Positions 634 through 18,014 of a stretch of 20,101 nt of DNA are shown in pieces. The notes below the pieces were generated by a model that saw only the letters and a program-made list of their open reading frames with translations, was not told where the DNA came from and ran no database searches. The stretch lies in the IMG/VR virus record IMGVR_UViG_3300037189_014320, positions 1 through 20,101 of that record. The stretch is one strand, 5' to 3'. Position 1 is the first letter of the stretch. Each line of letters starts with the position of its first letter. Source of the DNA: a virus. The position numbers and the translations under genes are program-made.

Positions 634-1608
634 TCATGCCAGGTACTGCACGATGACGCAGCCAGCGCCACCGGGGTAGCTCGAGTCGAACCCGCCACCG
701 CCGTATCCCGCAGCGAAATAGCGGGCTGGCGATGTCGGAACCTTGATTCCGCCCGAGCCGAACGCAGGCTCTGTACTACAGTCCTCGGTGGTCTTCAGGC
801 CGCAGGCCGCCGCCGCAGCCAGCACGCCGCCGTCGTAGGTCGCGTTGAGCGGCACACGTTTGCACGGCGACACGGCGCGCTCTTCCTTGTTGTCGCCGTA
901 TCCGGCCACAGCCCCGCCCAGGTACCAGCTGCTCAGGAAAATGGACCCGGTCAGGAACTGCCAGTTCGCGCCGTTGTTGCTCTGTCCGCCAGAGCCGCCG
1001 TTCCGGCCGCCGTCGCCGCCGCTCCACGAGCTGGCGCTGCCGCCGCTTGGTGCTGTGACGGTTGTCCCGCGATACGTCACAGACGTGCCAGAGCTGGTAA
1101 GCGAGATCGAAGGCGACTCGTACTGCGTGTCGACAGACCACGTCTTCCACGTCAGCGCGCCAGCCGTCCCACCGGTGCCGACGGTCGAGCCAGTTCCGAC
1201 CGCCCAGACCTTTATCGAGTTGACCCAGCACGGGATCGGAATGGTGCCAGACGACGTGAATAGTTGGTGAGCGCCGCAGTTATTCAGCCACGACGCGCCG
1301 TTGAACGAGTCAGAAGCCGCCCCTGCCCCGCACGCATTCAGCGCACGAACACGAACAGCCGTCGTATCTCTGCACCACGACAACGTCGCCGTGCGAGTGC
1401 TGGACGATGTCTCCATGAGCGTCTGCCAGCCGCCCGCGCCCAACGACTCGACGCGGTATCCCGTAAGTGGCCGCGTGCCTGTGCTGTCCGGCTCGTCCCA
1501 TGCGATCGAGCCTGAAGCGCAATCCGTGCTCAGGCTGGACTGTCGGATATTCAGCGGCGCGCTCGGCACGATGCACGCGCGACACGGAAATCCCAGGTGG
1601 CCTTTCAA
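634..1608 (-). CDS. Terminal tail fibre with fibronectin III-like and glycine-rich domains (candidate receptor-binding protein)
   Basis: This is a 324-aa protein. I chose the TTG start at 1606-1608 because it overlaps the preceding stop as TTGA and has GGAG at the right distance; the first ATG in frame lies far inside the upstream gene. Residues about 14-102 resemble a fibronectin III domain (PSAPLN start, W37, TGYRVESL at 49-56, and VRVRALNACGAG near the end). Residues about 131-324 are Gly/Ser/Thr-rich, beginning IKVWAVGTG and ending GGGGFDSSYPGGAGCVIVQY, a pattern of glycine-rich tail-fibre tip domains. There are 11 cysteines spread along the protein. As the last gene of the tail module, after a collagen-like fibre, it is a good candidate for host recognition. 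That role is inferred from position and composition. Confidence 0.8.
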   Translation of the reverse strand: MKGHLGFPCRACIVPSAPLNIRQSSLSTDCASGSIAWDEPDSTGTRPLTGYRVESLGAGGWQTLMETSSSTRTATLSWCRDTTAVRVRALNACGAGAASDSFNGASWLNNCGAHQLFTSSGTIPIPCWVNSIKVWAVGTGSTVGTGGTAGALTWKTWSVDTQYESPSISLTSSGTSVTYRGTTVTAPSGGSASSWSGGDGGRNGGSGGQSNNGANWQFLTGSIFLSSWYLGGAVAGYGDNKEERAVSPCKRVPLNATYDGGVLAAAAACGLKTTEDCSTEPAFGSGGIKVPTSPARYFAAGYGGGGFDSSYPGGAGCVIVQYLA

Positions 1609-2660
1609 GCTAGATCTCCGACCAGCAGCCACGAGTTGGAGCCGAGGTACACAAGAGACGCACCTGATCCCGTGGCGCGAAACGACGCGGACGGGGTGGC
1701 GGTAATGGTCACGCCTGACGCCCCAGCCACCGTCAACGCAGCCACGCCGATGCGCGCGATGTCGATATGCGACCCAGCCACCCACGACACGGACGAGCTC
1801 GCCGGCACAGTGATCGTGAGCGTTCCGCTCGACGCCGAAAACGTCAGCAGCGTTCCAACGTCGGAAAGCTGGAGCGTGTAGTTGGCGGTTTTTGCGCTGA
1901 GAGTTTGCGGATCGCCAAACGACCCAGCATCGCCTCGCGGAATCGTCAACGAAAGAGTCTGCGTCGGTGCCGTTCCGGTAATCGTGGCCGACGCAGAAGA
2001 TCCAGCGGCTCCAGTCGTGACAGTTCCGATCGACAAACTGTTAGCAGAGCCGGCAGAGCCGGCAGAGCCGGCAGAGCCGGCGGCCCCTGTATTGCCGCGC
2101 GGAATTGTAAGGTTCAACGTCTGCGACGGCGGATCGCCTGTTATCTCTGCCGACGCAGAAGAACCGGCTGCGCCCGTCGTCACAGTGCCGATCGAAAGCG
2201 AATTAGCAGAGCCGCCCGACCCAGACGCAGCCGGAATCACGAGAGATAACGTTTGATTCGGCGCCGCCCCTGTGAGCGTTGCCGACGCAGTCGTGCCGCT
2301 CGTCACGGTTCCGATCGATAGAGTCGTTGCCGGCCCTGATGGGCCTTGCGGGCCAGTAGCGCCAACGTCTCCTCGCGGAATCGTGAAATCGAGCGTGACG
2401 TTGTTGCCGTTGTTGCTCGACTTCGCCGACACGCTGGCCGAGCTGCCTGCGGAGCCGGTCGTCACTGTGCCGACAGCTATCGCTGTGGCTGGCGACCCCT
2501 GCGGACCAGTCGGTCCAATGCCGCCAGGCGTCCCTGCCAGCGATGCCGTGATCGTGTACGCCGACGACGACGCGCCAACGGCCACGCCGACAGTGTCGCC
2601 GGTTGTGGCGGTGACGTTTGGCCCGCTCTGGCCGTTGACGGTAACGGTGATGTCGCTCAT
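1605..2660 (-). CDS. Collagen-like tail fibre protein
   Basis: This is a 351-aa protein starting at ATG 2658-2660, overlapping the preceding stop as ATGA. The N-terminus (1-43) is beta-type (MSDITVTVNGQSGPNVTATT). Short collagen-like Gly-X-Y runs follow at about 45-57 (PGGIGPTGPQGSP), 97-110 (GDVGATGPQGPSGP) and 189-205 (GSA repeats). They separate four copies of a module of about 30-35 residues, IGTVTTGAAGSSASA...QTLSLTIPRG, beginning near 62, 115, 157 and 210. Residues 250-351 form a different C-terminal domain (ANYTLQLSDVG...LGSNSWLLVGD) of a kind common at the ends of phage fibres. It is probably a trimeric shaft connecting the tail tip to the terminal fibre protein encoded next. Confidence 0.88.
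   Translation of the reverse strand: MSDITVTVNGQSGPNVTATTGDTVGVAVGASSSAYTITASLAGTPGGIGPTGPQGSPATAIAVGTVTTGSAGSSASVSAKSSNNGNNVTLDFTIPRGDVGATGPQGPSGPATTLSIGTVTSGTTASATLTGAAPNQTLSLVIPAASGSGGSANSLSIGTVTTGAAGSSASAEITGDPPSQTLNLTIPRGNTGAAGSAGSAGSAGSANSLSIGTVTTGAAGSSASATITGTAPTQTLSLTIPRGDAGSFGDPQTLSAKTANYTLQLSDVGTLLTFSASSGTLTITVPASSSVSWVAGSHIDIARIGVAALTVAGASGVTITATPSASFRATGSGASLVYLGSNSWLLVGDLA
1932..2477 (-). repeat. Four imperfect protein-level repeats in the collagen-like fibre gene
   Basis: Four diverged copies of a coding module with the consensus (S)IGTVTTGAAGSSASA-x-ITG-x-x-P-x-QTL-x-LTIPRG lie at roughly residues 62-97, 115-144, 157-189 and 210-243 of the fibre. The last two are nearly identical in protein sequence; the first two are more diverged. 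Copies are separated by collagen-like or Gly/Ser linkers. This looks like duplication of a beta-strand fibre module within the gene. Confidence 0.85.
2044..2079. repeat. Perfect 9-bp tandem repeat, four copies
   Basis: The unit gcagagccg (+ strand) occurs four times head to tail. On the coding strand it specifies GSA triplets in a Gly-Ser-Ala linker of the collagen-like fibre. Because the unit is a multiple of three, slipped-strand changes in copy number would lengthen or shorten the linker without breaking the frame. Confidence 0.95.
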
Positions 2661-11283: not shown

Positions 11284-12504
11284 TCAGCTGGCTGCCTTGG
11301 CGAGCCGGCCCACGAACTCGGGGGCGTGGTTGGCCACGCCGTACCGGGTGTTCGCCACGTACAGGACCTGGCGATTCCGCATCAGGATCTCGCGGCCGGC
11401 TTCGATCTCGAGGCCGCTGTCCTTGATGCCGATCGCCGACGCCATCGAGAAGTCGCCGTAGAGGGCCAGCGTCGTCGAGGGCAGGCCCTTCACCAGGTAG
11501 ACAGGAGCGCCGAACACCGTCGGCACAACCCGACCGCCGCCGACAGTCATGGTCGTCTGCTGGGCCGCCCACAGCTTCATCAGGTCCACCCAGCCGGCAC
11601 GGCTGGCGACCCACGCCGAAGTCCCCATCACCGTCTCGTCGACCTTGCCGACGACGTCGGCCAGGTTGTTGAGGCTGGTGGCCGCATTGGCAGCCACGGT
11701 GATCGTGTTGCCAGAGGCGACCGCACCTGCCAGGCCGGTGATCGTCGGGCTGGAGGAGTTGCCACCGAGCCAGACGGCGTCGAACTTCTGGGCGTAGGAC
11801 AGGGCGAAACGCTCGGCCACAAGGCCGGCCACGTCGATCGGCGAGTCGTCGAGCAGGCTACGCGACACGGCCACCGAGGCCCGCATCTCGTAAAGCGTCA
11901 GGTCCGCCACGCTGGTGGTCAGGTCCTGGTCGCTGGTCGCGGTGCCTTCGGAAACGAACGACGCGGTGGCGTCGCCGACCTTCGGGAACGAGATCTTCGC
12001 ACCGGCCGGACGCACGACTGTTGCCAGCTGGAGGCCGACCGACGCGTACTGGAGCCGGTTCACGATCGCGTTGTAGAGCTCGCCGATGACGTACTCGGCA
12101 CCCTTCGCGTCGTACGCGGTGGACGTTTCTCCCATCGCCCGGATTTCGCCGGTGTAGAGCTGCCGCAGGTAGCCGCCGACCAGGGCCGCAGCCTTGGCGG
12201 ACGAGAACCCCTGCACGCCGGAGCGGATGTCGGTCCGCTCGCTGCGGGCCTCGCCCTTCTCGACAGCTGCGCGCGGCTCGCTGTCGGCGACCGGCGCCAG
12301 CTTCGAACGGGCCGCCGCAAGGCGGGCCTCGATCGCGTTCTCACGCTCGACGACCTGGTTCAGCTCGTCGGCACGCTGGAGCGCCCGCTCGAGGGCCGCG
12401 GCCGCCGCGCCGTCCTTGTCGTCGTTGGGGTCGACGTTCCGGAGGTTCTCGATCTGCGGGAGAAGGGTGGCGATTTCGTCCTGGGCCAGGCGGAGCTTGC
12501 TCAT
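11284..12504 (-). CDS. Major capsid protein, HK97 fold
   Basis: This is a 406-aa protein from ATG 12502-12504 with GAGGA 4 bases upstream. Residues 1 to about 95 form an acidic and basic coiled coil (the delta or scaffold domain: LPQIENLRNVDPNDDKDG, LERALQRADELNQVVERE), normally removed by the prohead protease. The shell domain follows, with the typical AEYVIGELYNAIVNRLQYAS, VVRPAGAKISFPKVGDATAS, VSRSLLDDSPIDVAGLVAER and WLGGNSSSPTITGLAG segments. It ends YGVANHAPEFVGRLAKAAS. These are signatures of the HK97-type capsid. The gene is bracketed by two structured intergenic gaps, and it is separated from its protease by nine cassette genes. Confidence 0.95.
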   Translation of the reverse strand: MSKLRLAQDEIATLLPQIENLRNVDPNDDKDGAAAAALERALQRADELNQVVERENAIEARLAAARSKLAPVADSEPRAAVEKGEARSERTDIRSGVQGFSSAKAAALVGGYLRQLYTGEIRAMGETSTAYDAKGAEYVIGELYNAIVNRLQYASVGLQLATVVRPAGAKISFPKVGDATASFVSEGTATSDQDLTTSVADLTLYEMRASVAVSRSLLDDSPIDVAGLVAERFALSYAQKFDAVWLGGNSSSPTITGLAGAVASGNTITVAANAATSLNNLADVVGKVDETVMGTSAWVASRAGWVDLMKLWAAQQTTMTVGGGRVVPTVFGAPVYLVKGLPSTTLALYGDFSMASAIGIKDSGLEIEAGREILMRNRQVLYVANTRYGVANHAPEFVGRLAKAAS

Positions 12505-12587
12505 CGTGTCCTCGCGGGGAAGGGTGTTTCGTCGTGATCGACTCGCACACTGTCCCGAACTACGGACCACCGTTGAACTCGACTGTT
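12505..12587 (-). other. 83-base gap before the capsid gene; possible control region
   Basis: This is one of only four gaps longer than 40 bases. It holds several GAAC/GTTC half-sites and the 15-bp palindrome GTTCTACGGTAGAAC, which starts at 12585 and extends to 12599 at the end of the upstream gene. I see no convincing -35/-10 pair on the minus strand. An operator or mRNA processing element is possible. Confidence 0.4.
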
Positions 12588-12619
12588 CTACGGTAGAACT
12601 TTTGCCGGGCATCGCCCGG
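12585..12619 (-). other. Two adjacent inverted repeats at the end of the cassette
   Basis: Two inverted repeats are next to each other: CCGGGC-ATC-GCCCGG (12605-12619, 6-bp stem, 3-base loop) and GTTCTAC-G-GTAGAAC (12585-12599, palindromic DNA; as RNA a 5-bp stem with 5-base loop). They overlap the last codons of the 99-aa gene. There is no U-tract, so a standard terminator is not supported. Confidence 0.5.
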
Positions 12620-12887
12620 ACGAACACGCGCCGCACGAGCAGCGTACGTATCCACCGTCGGGCCTGTAGATGCGGCCCGTGCCGCCGCACTTCTCGCACG
12701 CGGCCGCCTTCGGCTTCTGCTCGAGCTGCGGCGGCGCCGGTTCAGGCGGCGGCGCCGGCTCCTTGGCCATGGCCGCATAGGCCACGGTCACGCAGCCGGC
12801 ACCTCGAGCACGCTCGGCGGCCATGTCGGCCGGATCGCTCGAGGTAGCCGCCAGCATCCAGAGCAGCCAATGCCACAGGGCGTGCAT
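12588..12887 (-). CDS. Small zinc-motif protein with hydrophobic N-terminus
   Basis: This is a 99-aa protein from ATG 12885-12887, directly after the preceding stop (TAG ATG), with GAGG upstream. Residues 3-15 are hydrophobic (ALWHWLLWMLAAT), possibly a membrane segment or signal. A Pro-rich linker (PPPEPAPPQ) leads to a cysteine cluster, ACEKCGGTGRIYRPDGGYVR followed by CSCGACSSGRC (C64, C67, C83, C85, C88, C93). CEKCGGTG matches the CxxCxGxG pattern of DnaJ-type zinc domains. It is the last cassette gene before the capsid gene. Function is unknown; a membrane-bound zinc protein is one reading. Confidence 0.72.
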   Translation of the reverse strand: MHALWHWLLWMLAATSSDPADMAAERARGAGCVTVAYAAMAKEPAPPPEPAPPQLEQKPKAAACEKCGGTGRIYRPDGGYVRCSCGACSSGRCPAKVLP

Positions 12888-13169
12888 CTACCACCTCGCG
12901 TTATCGAGGACCTGGTGGCCGTCGACGCCGATCGTCGCGTGGGCGAACTGCACCTCGTCGGCATCGGGCGGAGCCGGCTCGAAGACCCACAGGGCAGCCA
13001 GGCCGAACTTCGCCGCGACCTGGGCGACTCTTGCCAGGAACCGCAGGACCGGGCGCTCGGGCCGCGGCGGCGTGGGGCGGATCGGAGACTCTGGCGCAGT
13101 TGCCAGCCACCACGTCGCGCCAGCCAGGACGACGGCGGCAACGATCAGCTTCTTCTGGTCAGGTCGCAT
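12888..13169 (-). CDS. Small membrane protein, function unknown
   Basis: This is a 93-aa protein from ATG 13167-13169, overlapping the GlsB-like gene by 11 bases. It has an N-terminal membrane segment at about 8-24 (LIVAAVVLAGATWWLAT), a Pro/Arg-rich stretch (PIRPTPPRPERP), a second amphipathic or hydrophobic segment at about 41-64 (VLRFLARVAQVAAKFGLAAL) and a short acidic tail. A charged MRPDQKK N-terminus suggests the cytoplasmic side is N-terminal. It is part of the envelope cassette and could be a holin-like or accessory protein, but the sequence does not show which. Confidence 0.72.
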   Translation of the reverse strand: MRPDQKKLIVAAVVLAGATWWLATAPESPIRPTPPRPERPVLRFLARVAQVAAKFGLAALWVFEPAPPDADEVQFAHATIGVDGHQVLDNARW

Positions 13170-13395
13170 CTGATTCACTCCACAGCCGGTACAGGTACAG
13201 GACGACGCATGCCCCGACGATCGATCCGACGACGCCGGCCGGGCCTTGTCCGAACGGCAGGCCGCCGGCGATCGAGCCGAGCACGCCGACGCCGATCGTC
13301 GGGATCCAGCCGGCCGGGACGTTCGCCGGCACGATGGCCTTTGCCACGCCGCCGGCAATCGCCCCCAGTAATGCCCAGTAGACGAGCGAGATCAT
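13159..13395 (-). CDS. GlsB/YeaQ/YmgE-like small integral membrane protein
   Basis: This is a 78-aa protein from ATG 13393-13395 (ATGA overlap with the peptidase stop). It reads MISLVYWALLGAIAGGVAKA, then GWIPTIGVGVLGSIAGGLPF, then GVVGSIVGACVVLYLYRL. These three glycine-rich membrane segments fit the GlsB/YeaQ/YmgE (transglycosylase-associated) family in size and pattern. The family's function is poorly understood. Directly downstream of a membrane-anchored peptidase, a role as a pore- or holin-like partner is a reasonable guess. Confidence 0.75.
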   Translation of the reverse strand: MISLVYWALLGAIAGGVAKAIVPANVPAGWIPTIGVGVLGSIAGGLPFGQGPAGVVGSIVGACVVLYLYRLWSESDAT

Positions 13396-14489
13396 TTATC
13401 CCCCTTGGCCATCCAGCCGTCGTTTACGAGTTCGCGGGCCTTGAACCCGTCGACCGATCCGATCACGAACGAGTCGCCCTGCGCCAGGATCGCCTCGGCG
13501 TCTCCGCGTGTGATCCAGAACGAGCCGTCGGGCTGGTCGACGGGATGCCTGCCGCCGCGTACCCAATTCGGACCCCAGCTGTTCATCACGAGCACGCCGT
13601 CGCGCGGGTGCTGCATCGGCGTCAGCGATCCCGGCAGATTGTTCTTCGCGTACTTCACGCCGATGACAACCATGCAATGCGCCCAGCTGCCGCTCCTCTT
13701 CAGGAACCCGTCGGCGTCTCTGTCCTGGCCCTTGAACCCGATGTTCGAGCAGATCGGCACGCACAGGCCGTTTTCGAGCGCCGCCGTCAGGCCTTGCCAC
13801 GTCTCGACCAGGGCGACGGCTCGTGCCGTGTGTTGGTTCGCCTCTTTGGCGAGCTGCGGCGACACGCCACGCGCGCCCCATTCCTTGGCTCGCGGGATCT
13901 CGTACTTCGTCAGGTCGACGTCGCCGTACTTCTGGCGGTACAGGATCCCGCCGTGGCCGTTCTTCAGGCCGGCCACCCAGCGTGCCGCGGCTGCTCCGTA
14001 TGAGCCGTCGGAGTAGCCCGCGAACGTCACCGGCGGGAGCCGGCCCTCGGTCCGGCTGCCGGCGTAGATTGGCTCGGTTGCCACCTCGAGCGGCGGCTCC
14101 GCCAGGCCGCCCTGGCACCAGTCGACGCACTGGCCGACGTAGCTTCCCATGCCCCAGCCGAACGATACACACGTCCCGATCTCGCCCTGGTTCCATGGCC
14201 CGTAGGGCGTGCCGTAGCGCGCCTGGTGGGCTCTTTCGGCGTAGCGGTACAGGTAGGCGTCTCGCCCCTTCGCGGCCGCCAGGACGTCCGGGGCGGCCTG
14301 ACGGAATGTCGGCTGCTCGAGCTCGCGGAGGAAAGCCCGCGTGCCTTCCGGGTTGGGCGTCCAGCCCATCTGGCGATCAGCGGCCCGGAGGGCCTTGTGC
14401 GTCAGGTGGTCGACGAGCGCTCCCAGGATCGCCGCGAACACGACGAACGCGACGGCGGACCACGTCCACGCTGCCTGGCGGTTGCTCAT
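13392..14489 (-). CDS. Membrane-anchored papain-like cysteine peptidase
   Basis: This is a 365-aa protein from ATG 14487-14489, joined to the preceding stop as TGATG. Residues about 8-26 form an N-terminal transmembrane anchor (WTWSAVAFVVFAAILGALV). The rest matches the papain (C1-like) fold: Q101 and C107 in NQGEIGTCVSFGWG with the exact papain spacing (Gln six residues before Cys), H271 in GSWAHCMVVIGVKY and N303 in VLVMNSWGPNW. The Cys, His and Asn of the triad and the oxyanion Gln are all present, so it should be active. It probably faces outside the inner membrane. There is no obvious propeptide, and no muramidase or amidase endolysin is seen in this window. A role in lysis or envelope breakdown is inferred, not shown. 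Confidence 0.88.
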   Translation of the reverse strand: MSNRQAAWTWSAVAFVVFAAILGALVDHLTHKALRAADRQMGWTPNPEGTRAFLRELEQPTFRQAAPDVLAAAKGRDAYLYRYAERAHQARYGTPYGPWNQGEIGTCVSFGWGMGSYVGQCVDWCQGGLAEPPLEVATEPIYAGSRTEGRLPPVTFAGYSDGSYGAAAARWVAGLKNGHGGILYRQKYGDVDLTKYEIPRAKEWGARGVSPQLAKEANQHTARAVALVETWQGLTAALENGLCVPICSNIGFKGQDRDADGFLKRSGSWAHCMVVIGVKYAKNNLPGSLTPMQHPRDGVLVMNSWGPNWVRGGRHPVDQPDGSFWITRGDAEAILAQGDSFVIGSVDGFKARELVNDGWMAKGDK

Positions 14490-14728
14490 CAGTCCGCCTC
14501 CTCGCCGATCCGACGCGGGATCGGCAGCGGCAGGAGCGGCGCACGGCACCGGCACTGACACGGCGGGATCGCCTCGACGGCCTGCCGCAGCTCGCGGACC
14601 TCCTGGCGGATGGCCAGCAAGATCGCCGGGCAGGCCCCGGCCGAGATCAAGAGCACGACGCAGGCCAGCACTGTCAGCGCGTAGACGCCGTTGTCGATGA
14701 ATTCCCACAGCCAGTCGGCCCAGCTCAT
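14489..14728 (-). CDS. Small single-span membrane protein with helical and Cys-rich tail
   Basis: This is a 79-aa protein from ATG 14726-14728 (ATGA overlap). A membrane segment at about 17-40 (YALTVLACVVLLISAGACPAILL) follows an aromatic start (MSWADWLWEFIDNG). A charged helix (RQEVRELRQAVEA) and PPCQCRCRAPLLPLP come next, then an acidic end. The layout (one TM then a helix) resembles i-spanin or holin-accessory proteins, but the family cannot be determined. It immediately precedes the papain-like peptidase. Confidence 0.75.
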   Translation of the reverse strand: MSWADWLWEFIDNGVYALTVLACVVLLISAGACPAILLAIRQEVRELRQAVEAIPPCQCRCRAPLLPLPIPRRIGEEAD

Positions 14729-15177
14729 CGGACGGCCTCCTCGGCCGCCCTGGCCAGCTCCCGGAACGCCTCGACCCACGCAGTCCGCGACGTCTCCGAC
14801 AGCGGCCCGCCGCTCTTGCCGACAACCTCGTCGAGGTACTTTCCGATCGCCGCCTTGGCGTGCGGCTGGCGTTCACGCAGCGGCACCGGCGAGAACCGGA
14901 ACTCGCTGGCAGCCGTCCGCAGGTCCTCGAGCTGGAGGCCTGTCGAGATCCGCGGCGATCCAGACTTGCCGTCGAGCTCGAGGGCGTCGGCCACGGCGGC
15001 ACAGACGCCGGCGAACGACGCGGCGTCGGCGGCCGCCTCGGATCCGATGAACTTGCCGCGGAGATTCAGCCCGCCGTCGTTTGGCGGCACCACGGTCGAC
15101 CGCGGCCAGAACTCGACGGCGGCCGCCACGGCGGCGCCGGCCAGCAGGGCAGCGACAAGGATTGTCCGCTGATTCAT
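14725..15177 (-). CDS. Membrane-anchored or exported protein, function unknown
   Basis: This is a 150-aa protein from ATG 15175-15177 (ATGA overlap). The N-terminus MNQRTILVAALLAGAAVAAA (about 5-21) is a signal peptide or anchor. The remaining ~125 residues form a soluble domain: SEAAADAASFAGVCAAVADA, LQLEDLRTAASEFRFSP, AIGKYLDEVVGK and AWVEAFRELARAAEEAV. These are mainly amphipathic helices. I recognise no catalytic motif. Together with the next gene (15174-15452), which has the same anchor-plus-helices plan, it could be one of a spanin-like or envelope-spanning pair. Confidence 0.75.
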   Translation of the reverse strand: MNQRTILVAALLAGAAVAAAVEFWPRSTVVPPNDGGLNLRGKFIGSEAAADAASFAGVCAAVADALELDGKSGSPRISTGLQLEDLRTAASEFRFSPVPLRERQPHAKAAIGKYLDEVVGKSGGPLSETSRTAWVEAFRELARAAEEAVR

Positions 15178-15452
15178 TTCCGCTGGCTCCCGTGCAACAG
15201 GTCGAGCCACAGCGTGTCGACGGCCTTCGCAGAGTCCTCGTCCAGGGCGTCGGTGGCCGCGAGCCGGTCACGCACGGCCAGCAGCGAGTCGATCGCGGCC
15301 CGCGGGTCCGGGGCCGGGGCGGCGGCCGCCGGCACCTGGGGCGGGACGCGGAACAAATCATCTGCCGCAGAAATCTTTGGCAGAGGATTCGTAACGCCAC
15401 GCGGCCAGAACAGGTAGGCCAGCGCGGCGACGACGAGCAGGGCGGTGATCAT
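15174..15452 (-). CDS. Small membrane-anchored protein, function unknown
   Basis: This is a 92-aa protein from ATG 15450-15452 (ATGA overlap). The N-terminal segment MITALLVVAALAYLFWPRG is a single membrane anchor. A Pro/Ala-rich linker (VPAAAAPAPDP) and an acidic helical C-terminus (IDSLLAVRDRLAATDALDED... ending LWLDLLHGSQRK) follow. It has no cysteines and no known motif. The tight coupling to the 119-aa and 150-aa neighbours suggests a shared role at the envelope. Confidence 0.73.
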   Translation of the reverse strand: MITALLVVAALAYLFWPRGVTNPLPKISAADDLFRVPPQVPAAAAPAPDPRAAIDSLLAVRDRLAATDALDEDSAKAVDTLWLDLLHGSQRK

Positions 15453-15808
15453 GCTTCCTGGCTCCTGGTGATTCGCAGCAGGGCCTCGACGGCGCCGGCG
15501 GCGAGCGAGAGAACGAGAACTCGGGTTGCCGGCCGGATCAGCATCCACGCCGGCCAGGCGGCCAGCGGAACGGCCTTGTCGGCAAACGAGTCGAAGAGCG
15601 CCGCCACGGCCGTCAGCGCGATCGCCTTCTTCTCCGGGCCTGTCAGGCCAGCGACGGCCTCCAGGGCTCTGACGACCAGGTACAGCAGCTCGACGAGCAT
15701 CCGGCCAAACTCGGACCACGTCAGGCCGTCCTTCGCCTTGTCGCGTGCGCCGGCCAGGAACGCGTTCACGCTGGCGGCGACTGTCGTGATCGTGTCGCTG
15801 GCGTTCAT
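15449..15808 (-). CDS. Putative holin-like membrane protein
   Basis: This is a 119-aa protein from ATG 15806-15808 (ATGA overlap). After a short polar N-terminus, WSEFGRMLVELLYLVVRALE (31-50) and GPEKKAIALTAVAALFDSFA (57-76) are amphipathic helices. Residues about 77-112 are strongly hydrophobic (AVPLAAWPAWMLIRPATRVL, VLSLAAGAVEALL), allowing one or two membrane spans. It begins the membrane part of the cassette. Size, hydrophobic pattern and context suit a holin-like protein, but no holin family is clearly recognised, so the name is tentative. Confidence 0.65.
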   Translation of the reverse strand: MNASDTITTVAASVNAFLAGARDKAKDGLTWSEFGRMLVELLYLVVRALEAVAGLTGPEKKAIALTAVAALFDSFADKAVPLAAWPAWMLIRPATRVLVLSLAAGAVEALLRITRSQEA

Positions 15809-15972
15809 CGCTTCCTCGTCCAGATCTCGGTGGCCGGCACGACACGCTTCCTGCGGGCGTGGCAGCAGCTGCATTCCAGCCGCTGCTCCTGCTCCAGGCC
15901 GACACGCCTGGAGGTGATCACGCGGCAGCGGTGGCCACAGTTGCGGCAGGCCCTACTTGATTCGGCCGACAT
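15805..15972 (-). CDS. 55-aa zinc-ribbon protein
   Basis: This short gene uses ATG 15970-15972 and ends at TGA 15805-15807, overlapping the next ATG as ATGA. Its start overlaps the end of the prohead protease by 20 bases. The protein is MSAESSRACRNCGHRCRVIT and then SRRVGLEQEQRLECSCCHARRKRVV. C9, C12 and C16 pair with C34, C36 and C37 across a short loop in the manner of a zinc ribbon (CxxC...CxC), with many arginines, so nucleic-acid binding is plausible. It is the first gene of the cassette. A GAGG lies about 10 bases upstream. The frame, the overlap and the cysteine layout make it a real gene. Confidence 0.78.
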   Translation of the reverse strand: MSAESSRACRNCGHRCRVITSRRVGLEQEQRLECSCCHARRKRVVPATEIWTRKR

Positions 15973-16663
15973 TGGCGCGGAGCCTCATGGCTGCGAGTTT
16001 GGCGGAGGCCGCCGTCAGGGCGTAGGACCAGCGGCGGCGTCTGTCTGCCTGCTCGTCTGCCACTCGCTCGGCCGCTTGCCGCTGCTCGGCCTCTGTCAGG
16101 TGATCGGCCCGCCACTGCTCGAGCGACCGCAGGGCCGCCGACGACTGCGGGTACGCGGCCCGCGTCACGATCGACACGTCCCACAGGCCGGCGACATCGG
16201 AGATCGTGCGGACCATGGTGCCGTCCGCCTCCTGGCTCCACGCCTCGCCTGTGCCGCCCTGCGGCAGCGTGAACGCGAAGCTGGCCCCGAACAGGTCGCC
16301 CCTCTTCACGAGGGTCGTAATGTCACGCCCAAGCGTCGTATCCGGCGGGTCGATGGAATACGCAAGCCCGCGATCTGTGACGTTTAGGCGGAGCGTGTCA
16401 TTCGTCGTGCGGCCGATCGGCTGGCCTGCATGATCGAATAGGGCAACAGTGTCGAGCCCGCCGCGCGGGTCGTTCCGGTGCCGGCCGACGATCTTGTCGA
16501 ACGCCGTCGGCAGAAACACCTCGCGGAAACCGCCCAGGTCCTCGCTCCGCGAATTGAACGGCGGCGAGATCCCCTTGATCAGCGGCGAGGCCGCGGACCG
16601 CTCCTCGAGCTCGATCGGCTCGACGGCAGTCGGGACGTAACGCCGCTCGACGTCATCACGCAT
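15953..16663 (-). CDS. HK97-type prohead protease
   Basis: This is a 236-aa protein from ATG 16661-16663 with GGAGG upstream, overlapping the portal stop by 8 bases. It begins VERRYVPTAVEPIELEERSA, then GISPPFNSRSEDLGGFREVF and LPTAFDKIV, as in prohead proteases of the U35 family. H78 in ALFDHAGQPIGR and S128 in GDLFGASFAFTLP are the likely catalytic residues. VAGLWDVSIVTRAAYPQSSA (158-177) is the usual conserved end of the catalytic domain, followed by an extended helical tail. It cleaves the capsid's N-terminal scaffold domain during maturation. Unusually, the capsid gene is not next; nine other genes lie between. Confidence 0.93.
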   Translation of the reverse strand: MRDDVERRYVPTAVEPIELEERSAASPLIKGISPPFNSRSEDLGGFREVFLPTAFDKIVGRHRNDPRGGLDTVALFDHAGQPIGRTTNDTLRLNVTDRGLAYSIDPPDTTLGRDITTLVKRGDLFGASFAFTLPQGGTGEAWSQEADGTMVRTISDVAGLWDVSIVTRAAYPQSSAALRSLEQWRADHLTEAEQRQAAERVADEQADRRRRWSYALTAASAKLAAMRLRANVGRIK

Positions 16664-18014
16664 TGGCAGGATCCTCCGGAGCTTGGGCCGGCACGTCTTC
16701 CGGGTCCAGCGTGTCTGCCGGGAACTGCGTGTTCGCCGGCGGCATGGCCGGAGCCGCGTCCGGGGCCGTTCCTGTGGCCGACGTGCCAAGCGGCGCGAAT
16801 CCGAGTTGCATGTACGTTTCGTTCGCCGCTGGATTCTCCAGGAGATCCAGGTCCTCGAGATCCCGCAGCTCGTTGGGCGAGATCGCGCCGGTGTTGAACA
16901 AGAACTGGTAGAGCGCAACGCGGGCCTGCGTGTCGCCACGAAGCAGGGCGCGGGAATCGAGCCGGCAGTAGTGCCGGCCGTCCATCGGGTTGTCGTACGT
17001 CCGCAGGATCGAGCGGTCGATCGCGCCCTCGAAACGCTTCTGCCACGGCAGCAGGCCGAAGACGTGGGCCGTCACGAACTCCTGCTCGACGTTGCTGTAC
17101 TTGGCCATCGCGTCGTCGCCGAGCAGCGTCGTCGGGATGCCGTACACGCGGGCGATGTCAGGGAGCATGCTCTTTCGCAGCTCCATGAACTGATTCGCCT
17201 CATTCGAGTTGCCCTCGATCGGCTTGAACTGCGTCTTCTTTGGCAGGATCGCCGTCGAGCCGCGGCGCTTGGCCGAGCCGTAGATCTCCTGCCACTGCTG
17301 CCGGAACTTGGCGGCCGCCTCGGGCGGGATCTCTTCCTGCGTCTCGATCACGCCGTCCGGGCGTGCGGAGTTGTCCCAGAAGCTGGCGGCGGCGACGTCG
17401 AGCTTGCGTGCCAGGGCCACGCTGGTCGAACACAGCTCGGCCGGCAGCTGGCCCTCAAACCCATTGTCCGACAGCCAGCGGTAGTGAACGATCTCGCTCT
17501 GGGCGAAATTCTTGTACTCGCCACGCGGCAGCAGGTAGCGGTAGATCAGACTGCCGTCGCCACCACGCAGGCAGGACATACGGCTCGGGTGCAGCGGCTC
17601 GAGCGACGAGCAGAACCCATTGTCCCCGGACACGATCCGCGAGTAGGCCCGGCCGTAGAGAGCCAGGTGATAGGACGTCGTTTCCTTGTACTCGAAATCG
17701 CTTTGCCAGGCGTTGGGCCGCCAGGTCAGCACGTCGTAGCAGGGCAGATCGTGGGCGTGCATCTTCGGGAAGCCGGGCCGCCGACGCATGACCTCGGTCG
17801 GCATGCACGCGATCGAGCTGGCGATAAACCGGACGCACGCCAGGATGCACGTTACGCGGACGGCCACCTCGGCCGACATGGAATCGGCCTGGAGGATCCC
17901 GCCCAGCGGAATATGGTCGGCCAGGCCACGCAGCTCGTACTTCTCGCCGGCCGGCTTGCGAGCCCGCGGCCGCTTGGGTGCCGCCGTCCGCTTCACAGCT
18001 CGATGATCTGCCAT
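16656..18014 (-). CDS. Portal protein, HK97 family
   Basis: This is a 452-aa protein from ATG 18012-18014, overlapping the large terminase end by 22 bases. After a basic N-terminus (KRTAAPKRPRARK) come VRVTCILACVRFIASSIACM, YHLALYGRAYSRIVSG, IVHYRWLSDNGFEGQLP and ARVYGIPTTLLGDDAMAKYS with NVEQEF, the standard signatures of the HK97-type portal family that forms the 12-subunit DNA entry ring. The C-terminal stretch (about 410-452) is low-complexity Pro/Ala/Asp-rich. The length is typical. Confidence 0.95.
   Translation of the reverse strand: MADHRAVKRTAAPKRPRARKPAGEKYELRGLADHIPLGGILQADSMSAEVAVRVTCILACVRFIASSIACMPTEVMRRRPGFPKMHAHDLPCYDVLTWRPNAWQSDFEYKETTSYHLALYGRAYSRIVSGDNGFCSSLEPLHPSRMSCLRGGDGSLIYRYLLPRGEYKNFAQSEIVHYRWLSDNGFEGQLPAELCSTSVALARKLDVAAASFWDNSARPDGVIETQEEIPPEAAAKFRQQWQEIYGSAKRRGSTAILPKKTQFKPIEGNSNEANQFMELRKSMLPDIARVYGIPTTLLGDDAMAKYSNVEQEFVTAHVFGLLPWQKRFEGAIDRSILRTYDNPMDGRHYCRLDSRALLRGDTQARVALYQFLFNTGAISPNELRDLEDLDLLENPAANETYMQLGFAPLGTSATGTAPDAAPAMPPANTQFPADTLDPEDVPAQAPEDPANA

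Follow-up and report, generated by a model that had tools for sequence, protein, structure and literature searches.

A membrane-anchored papain-fold peptidase as the putative wall-opening enzyme of tailed phages of Planctomycetota

How does a tailed phage open its host cell if no endolysin can be recognised among its genes? This question is raised by a 20,101-nucleotide stretch of viral DNA (IMG/VR record IMGVR_UViG_3300037189_014320), which is that record in its full length and is called the window here. We detected no endolysin in it, and it encodes a papain-fold (C1A-like) cysteine peptidase of 365 amino acids. A sequence-only reading had placed the gene at positions 13392 to 14489 and had proposed that a protease might serve to open the cell if the host were a planctomycete. 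The open reading frame and its coordinates were confirmed; its orientation, however, has to be specified, as the gene sits on the minus strand and the plus-strand frame at this position is interrupted by a stop codon. The ATG start codon is kept in relatives.

The sequence-only reading had numbered the four active-site residues correctly, and they are conserved in homologues. On the minus strand, their codons are those of Q101 (oxyanion hole; 14187..14189), C107 (nucleophile; 14169..14171), H271 (catalytic base; 13677..13679) and N303 (in an NSWG motif; 13581..13583). The glutamine, cysteine and histidine are invariant across the 120 homologues compared (103 distinct viral and 17 chromosomal proteins), and the asparagine is found in 103/103 viral and 14/17 chromosomal sequences, the other three carrying glutamine. 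An AlphaFold model of moderate confidence (pLDDT 71.8, pTM 0.73) has a papain-compatible secondary structure, with a helix starting at C107, H271 in a strand and N303 at a strand end. Comparison of a predicted structure with C1A peptidases had been proposed as a check, and the match was obtained: 137 PDB entries were hit at E <= 0.001, with xylellain (3ois, 7e-8) at the top and cathepsins next, and matches in BFVD included C1 peptidases from uncultured phages and giant viruses. The single N-terminal transmembrane segment that had been claimed is also present, as one hydrophobic stretch spanning residues 8-26 (14412..14468, minus strand). Hydropathy and counts of the flanking charges predict it to be a signal anchor with the N-terminus inside and the catalytic domain outside, a topology favoured in 67/99 viral and 7/7 chromosomal homologues; the segment is missing in distant homologues (G394, G316, G439, G456 and others).

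Searches at the sequence level were far less productive. Pfam, PHROGs and NCBIfam contain nothing that matches the peptidase, and neither do the 50,697 reference phage records of INPHARED; it defines a peptidase family that is absent from all these resources. Searches of PDB sequences with phmmer and profiles returned nothing useful. Among Pfam families, the window protein matched neither PF00112 nor C71 (PF12386), CHAP or NlpC/P60, and its distant homologues reached PF00112 at sub-threshold values only (0.015 and 0.27). Since the PF00112 test and the sequence test for a peptidoglycan endolysin both failed, we file the peptidase as a new C1A-like family that is possibly endolysin-like in its action. 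Direct searches found homologues in 40 IMG/VR loci, and many more were reached via neighbouring genes.

On the minus strand, the window carries in succession TerS, TerL and portal genes (named by sequence and position), the S78 prohead protease gene, eight cassette genes including that of the peptidase, the gene for the major capsid protein, and tail genes. The prohead protease (15953..16663; PF04586 at 3e-30 on a longer open reading frame, 15953-16939) forms the upstream border of the cassette and the major capsid protein (11284..12504; PF05065 at 4e-26) the downstream one, both on the minus strand, as are all genes between them. The cassette opens with c5 (119 aa; 15449..15808), a small, hydrophobic and constant membrane protein without a library match, whose description as holin-like is an inference. 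It is followed by c7 (92 aa; 15174..15452), which has an N-terminal membrane segment; by c4 (150 aa; 14725..15177), in which such a segment precedes a helical domain and which is a near-constant upstream neighbour of the peptidase; and by the membrane protein c39 (79 aa; 14489..14728), present in part of the loci. Downstream of the peptidase lie c18 (78 aa; 13159..13395), a membrane protein that weakly resembles the GlsB/YeaQ type (transglycosylase-associated; PF04226 sub-threshold at 0.028, NF007771 at 3e-5 under the cut-off), the proline-rich c6 with an N-terminal membrane segment (93 aa; 12888..13169), and the zinc-ribbon-like c8 (99 aa; 12588..12887), which forms a fusion with a thioredoxin-like domain in G138, a chromosomal relative. 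A 34.9-kb contig (G001) contains the window at 99.9% identity. In this contig, overlaps of 1-11 bases, in most cases 4, join the seven genes c5 to c6 into a tight operon, with c8 next at a gap of 0. The earlier statement that the peptidase is surrounded by small membrane proteins is borne out.

Across loci, the order reads c5-(c7)-c4-(c39)-peptidase-(c18)-c6-(c8). Either c4 or c39 is found directly upstream of the peptidase in 150/157 viral loci, and either c18 or c6 directly downstream in 131/157, with 20 more ending at a contig edge. The cassette is kept together in about 200 IMG/VR loci (195, near-duplicates counted) at several genome positions, namely between the prohead protease and capsid genes (48 loci with both borders seen), between dNMP kinase and c47 (17 loci), between c76 and c75, and elsewhere. 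Hence, it travels en bloc and has no fixed link with head assembly.

Several other features of these phages deserve to be recorded. The window also encodes a tail-fibre-like protein (1605-2660, minus strand) with a repeated motif, SLSIGTVTTGAAGSSASA, and similar proteins occur in relatives. A cassette-bearing phage encodes, elsewhere, an apparent secreted trypsin-like serine protease (L206:2755-3534), and a small secreted protein of about 104 aa with the pattern RREGIGFS...SCCYY (cluster c12; L013:8412-8726) is conserved in ten phage contigs. In one record (G012, IMGVR_UViG_3300049043_000091; L061-L063), the gene of the peptidase is fragmented along with several others, one fragment having an in-frame TGA, through either sequencing error or decay.

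The sequence-only reading had reported that no muramidase, amidase or glucosaminidase endolysin occurs in the window, and had named a canonical endolysin elsewhere in the genome, with its own holin, as a finding that would refute its proposal of a cell-opening protease. The contig that contains the window and its 34.4-kb relative G002 are circularly permuted with respect to each other, and jointly represent a near-complete genome; G010 and G011 are likewise mutually permuted, as judged by gene order. Scans of G001, G002 and G011 (45 kb) with Pfam and PHROGs detected no amidase, lysozyme, CHAP, NlpC/P60, transglycosylase or M15/M23 domain among the families listed (at most 25 in some of the scans), so that neither the statement on the window nor its extension to near-complete genomes is contradicted within that scope. 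Domains that were recognised in these three contigs comprise capsid, portal, tail, RusA, RecT, clamp, methylase, metallophosphatase, dNMP kinase, integrase and fibre. The scan relied on genes from a purpose-made caller, left out small open reading frames of G011 and included no record flagged as complete, and a very divergent peptidoglycan hydrolase could evade both libraries. Within these limits, and among the families listed, the peptidase is the only lysis-enzyme candidate found in the near-complete genomes. The larger phages of the group also encode a 92-aa protein with a HELIHA zinc-metallopeptidase-like motif (cluster c57; gene 38 of G011, near the L050/L051 border).

A survey of the slot between the prohead protease and capsid genes, in relatives picked by their capsid protein alone, bears directly on the target of the enzyme. 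Each of the 38 intact slots was filled, 32 with the papain-fold cassette (type A) and six with an alternative (type B); none had other content. In type B (L136:5055-8524, L335:1084-5825, L339-L416), c5 is retained as the sole cassette member in common, and the remainder consists of k38-k31-k39-k40-trypsin-k34-k29. The trypsin-like protein matches PF13365 at 8e-17, and its longer copies combine an N-terminal signal-peptide-like segment with a zinc ribbon, resembling HtrA, DegS and MarP. An unrecognised 289-aa protein of the type B set, k40, has a papain-like motif (Q76, C82/C84, H234). This is no more than a suggestion of a papain-like enzyme, given a model pLDDT of 31, and a comparison of the single k40 sequence used with the peptidase profile revealed no relation. 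The peptidase is present in 0/59 loci with k40; as these loci are contig windows, mutual exclusion of the two types is established at the level of the neighbourhood, without extending to entire genomes. That a single slot and a single holin-like gene are combined with two exchangeable protease sets, neither with a known peptidoglycan hydrolase, is our strongest argument that the target is protein.

Which bacteria carry the cassette can be read from their genomes. A scan of genomes from 84,980 species with the c5 pattern returned a single contig, from a Pirellulales MAG, with the entire cassette and phage genes; the same collection yielded no locus when scanned with the peptidase alignment. The peptidase was found in 11/392 Planctomycetota genomes, in several of them within long chromosomal contigs (6.43 Mb in G356), and in 9/119 sampled genomes of the family of G356. 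The planctomycete host considered in the sequence-only reading is in this way supported by homologues, not by the window's own phage. At one chromosomal site, G356, G138, G484 and G510 have a phage-like element of about 24 kb in common (G356:C1 3652001-3712000, G138:C4, G484:C2, G510:C2; L231-L236, L251-L254) that comprises TerL, portal, protease, capsid, tail and cassette genes; a second copy of it lies elsewhere in G510. Neither integrase nor replication genes were seen in the fixed element, and those of its genes that were scanned included no peptidoglycan hydrolase. The dN/dS of its peptidase, 0.06-0.15, falls in the span covered by the element's structural genes and indicates purifying selection. 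We regard the element as a candidate gene transfer agent. In planctomycete chromosomes, the peptidase adjoins a subtilase (G499; PF00082 at 3.5e-48) and thioredoxin-like proteins (G439, G138, G316 and others); these neighbours lie at L260:8460-9404, L257:9734-10141, L235:11160-11684 and L238:9191-10027.

Planctomycete walls have been suggested to consist mainly of protein, including cysteine-rich YTV proteins, and peptidoglycan genes are missing in most Planctomycetales (PMC8567305). In Planctopirus limnophila, a YTV gene belongs to the essential set, and genes for peptidoglycan synthesis are mostly dispensable (PMC10632474). YTV proteins (PF07639) are encoded by 17/17 genomes that carry the peptidase vs 4/36 that do not; restricted to the 11 carriers that came from the even draw across the phylum, the contrast gives p = 8e-8. 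Three or fewer Mur_ligase_M matches were counted in 11/17 carriers vs 3/36 non-carriers; the other six carriers have at least five and may make peptidoglycan. Both contrasts track host phylogeny and do not represent independent events.

Collectively, these data lead us to propose that, in tailed phages infecting Planctomycetota, the peptidase belongs to a lysis cassette and is the enzyme that opens the wall, with wall protein as its target. We consider this reading probable, albeit by a narrow measure, as enzymatic activity, substrate and lysis are inferred. The signal-anchor segment, as predicted, would keep the papain-fold catalytic domain on the outer side of the cytoplasmic membrane. Failure of this membrane late in infection may be triggered by the holin-like c5, whose role is an inference, as is the timing. 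The peptidase, possibly aided by the other small membrane proteins, would then digest the cysteine-rich YTV protein wall that, in this reading, replaces or reinforces peptidoglycan in these hosts. Conceivably, the thioredoxin-like protein of some chromosomal relatives could reduce disulfide crosslinks. A motif search of viral loci revealed no thioredoxins in the vicinity of the peptidase, and this redox step, itself inferred, is for that reason limited to the chromosomal relatives. The earlier proposal that a protease opens the cell has thereby gained support in those parts that can be checked computationally (a planctomycete host, no canonical endolysin detected, a holin-like partner and an alternative protease cassette), without data on lysis or proteolysis.

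A broader proposition is attractive, and we put it forward only tentatively. The cassettes might represent a new class of phage lysis, in which a holin-like protein is paired with a protease, papain-fold or interchangeably trypsin-like, against a disulfide-linked, load-bearing protein wall; some chromosomal versions would add a thioredoxin-like reductant, and one copy, within a gene-transfer-agent-like element that is fixed in one planctomycete lineage, would have been domesticated. Among the papers listed in our literature searches, we found no study on the lysis of planctomycetes by phages, and phage exit from bacteria without a normal peptidoglycan sacculus is apparently undescribed for this phylum. 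The cassette supplies a concrete enzyme, partners and hosts for such a process. If the proposal is true, it would provide an independent indication that the planctomycete protein wall is load-bearing, and possibly a tool to open cells in this phylum, whose envelope is unusual.

Other functions have to be weighed against wall opening. The anchored protease might trim host surface proteins, phage receptors for example, during infection or lysogeny, and thus serve envelope remodelling or superinfection exclusion. A predicted external catalytic domain on a signal anchor, the integrase of the phages and the purifying selection on chromosomal copies are all compatible with this idea. Typical accessory genes, however, would not be expected within a late structural operon in a slot filled in 38/38 cases (32 A, 6 B), and the phages would be left without a detectable lysis gene; we consider such a role unlikely, yet worth keeping in mind.

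As we saw no hydrolase domain, and as the active site is typical of enzymes that cut proteins, we rejected a simple peptidoglycan endolysin. This leaves a divergent papain-fold endolysin that cleaves peptide crosslinks in the manner of CHAP or NlpC/P60 enzymes. Papain-superfamily endolysins are well known (PMC10318531), and six carriers have five or more Mur ligase matches. Against this, the model resembles C1A enzymes that cut proteins, the Q/C/H/N active site is of the C1A type, Mur ligases are too few for normal peptidoglycan in 11/17 carriers, and the exchangeable cassette has a trypsin-like protease, all of which renders this explanation improbable in our eyes.

The processing of head or scaffold proteins, an option raised by the sequence-only reading, is suggested by the position of the peptidase between the prohead protease and capsid genes (window 11284 to 16663). 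An S78 prohead protease is already present and adjoins the cassette, however, the membrane segment and membrane-protein neighbours fit poorly, and the cassette is placed elsewhere in many phages. As the cassette moves, we rejected virion maturation as the main reading and give it little credence. A virion-carried protease that digests a host surface protein at entry, for which one might invoke the need to pierce a protein-rich surface, is hard to reconcile with a membrane signal anchor, an operon of membrane proteins and the lack of a constant link to tail genes, and we deem it very improbable.

Hence, a wall-opening protease remains our preferred reading, and it can be set beside systems that are already known. 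With xylellain and the cathepsins, the phage peptidase has the C1A fold and the order of the Q/C/H/N active-site residues in common, but it is phage-encoded, embedded in a membrane cassette and without a PF00112 match. SAR endolysins such as P1 Lyz cut peptidoglycan with an external catalytic domain that is held by an N-terminal membrane anchor. The peptidase shares with them such an anchor, an external catalytic domain (predicted from its N-in topology) and, by inference, a holin-like protein in the cassette, whereas its fold is C1A-like and a peptidoglycan hydrolase domain is lacking; no data on anchor release are at hand. Among BFVD entries, Peptidase_C1 proteins from uncultured Caudovirales have a similar predicted fold, but are only 14-18% identical to the peptidase and have no known cassette or function. 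CHAP and NlpC/P60 endolysins likewise belong to the papain superfamily and act in phage lysis (PMC10318531), but they cut peptidoglycan, and the peptidase matches neither. PeiW and PeiP, the pseudomurein endoisopeptidases (family C71) of methanogen phages, are also papain-superfamily enzymes that open non-murein walls (PMC4592898, PMC2989375, PMC10318531); they differ in that C71 falls in the transglutaminase-like branch and cuts an isopeptide bond of pseudomurein, whereas the phage peptidase has no C71 match and its hosts are bacteria with a protein wall. By analogy, PeiW and PeiP may be the closest counterparts for a papain-superfamily enzyme directed against a non-murein wall, and the SAR endolysins for its predicted topology.
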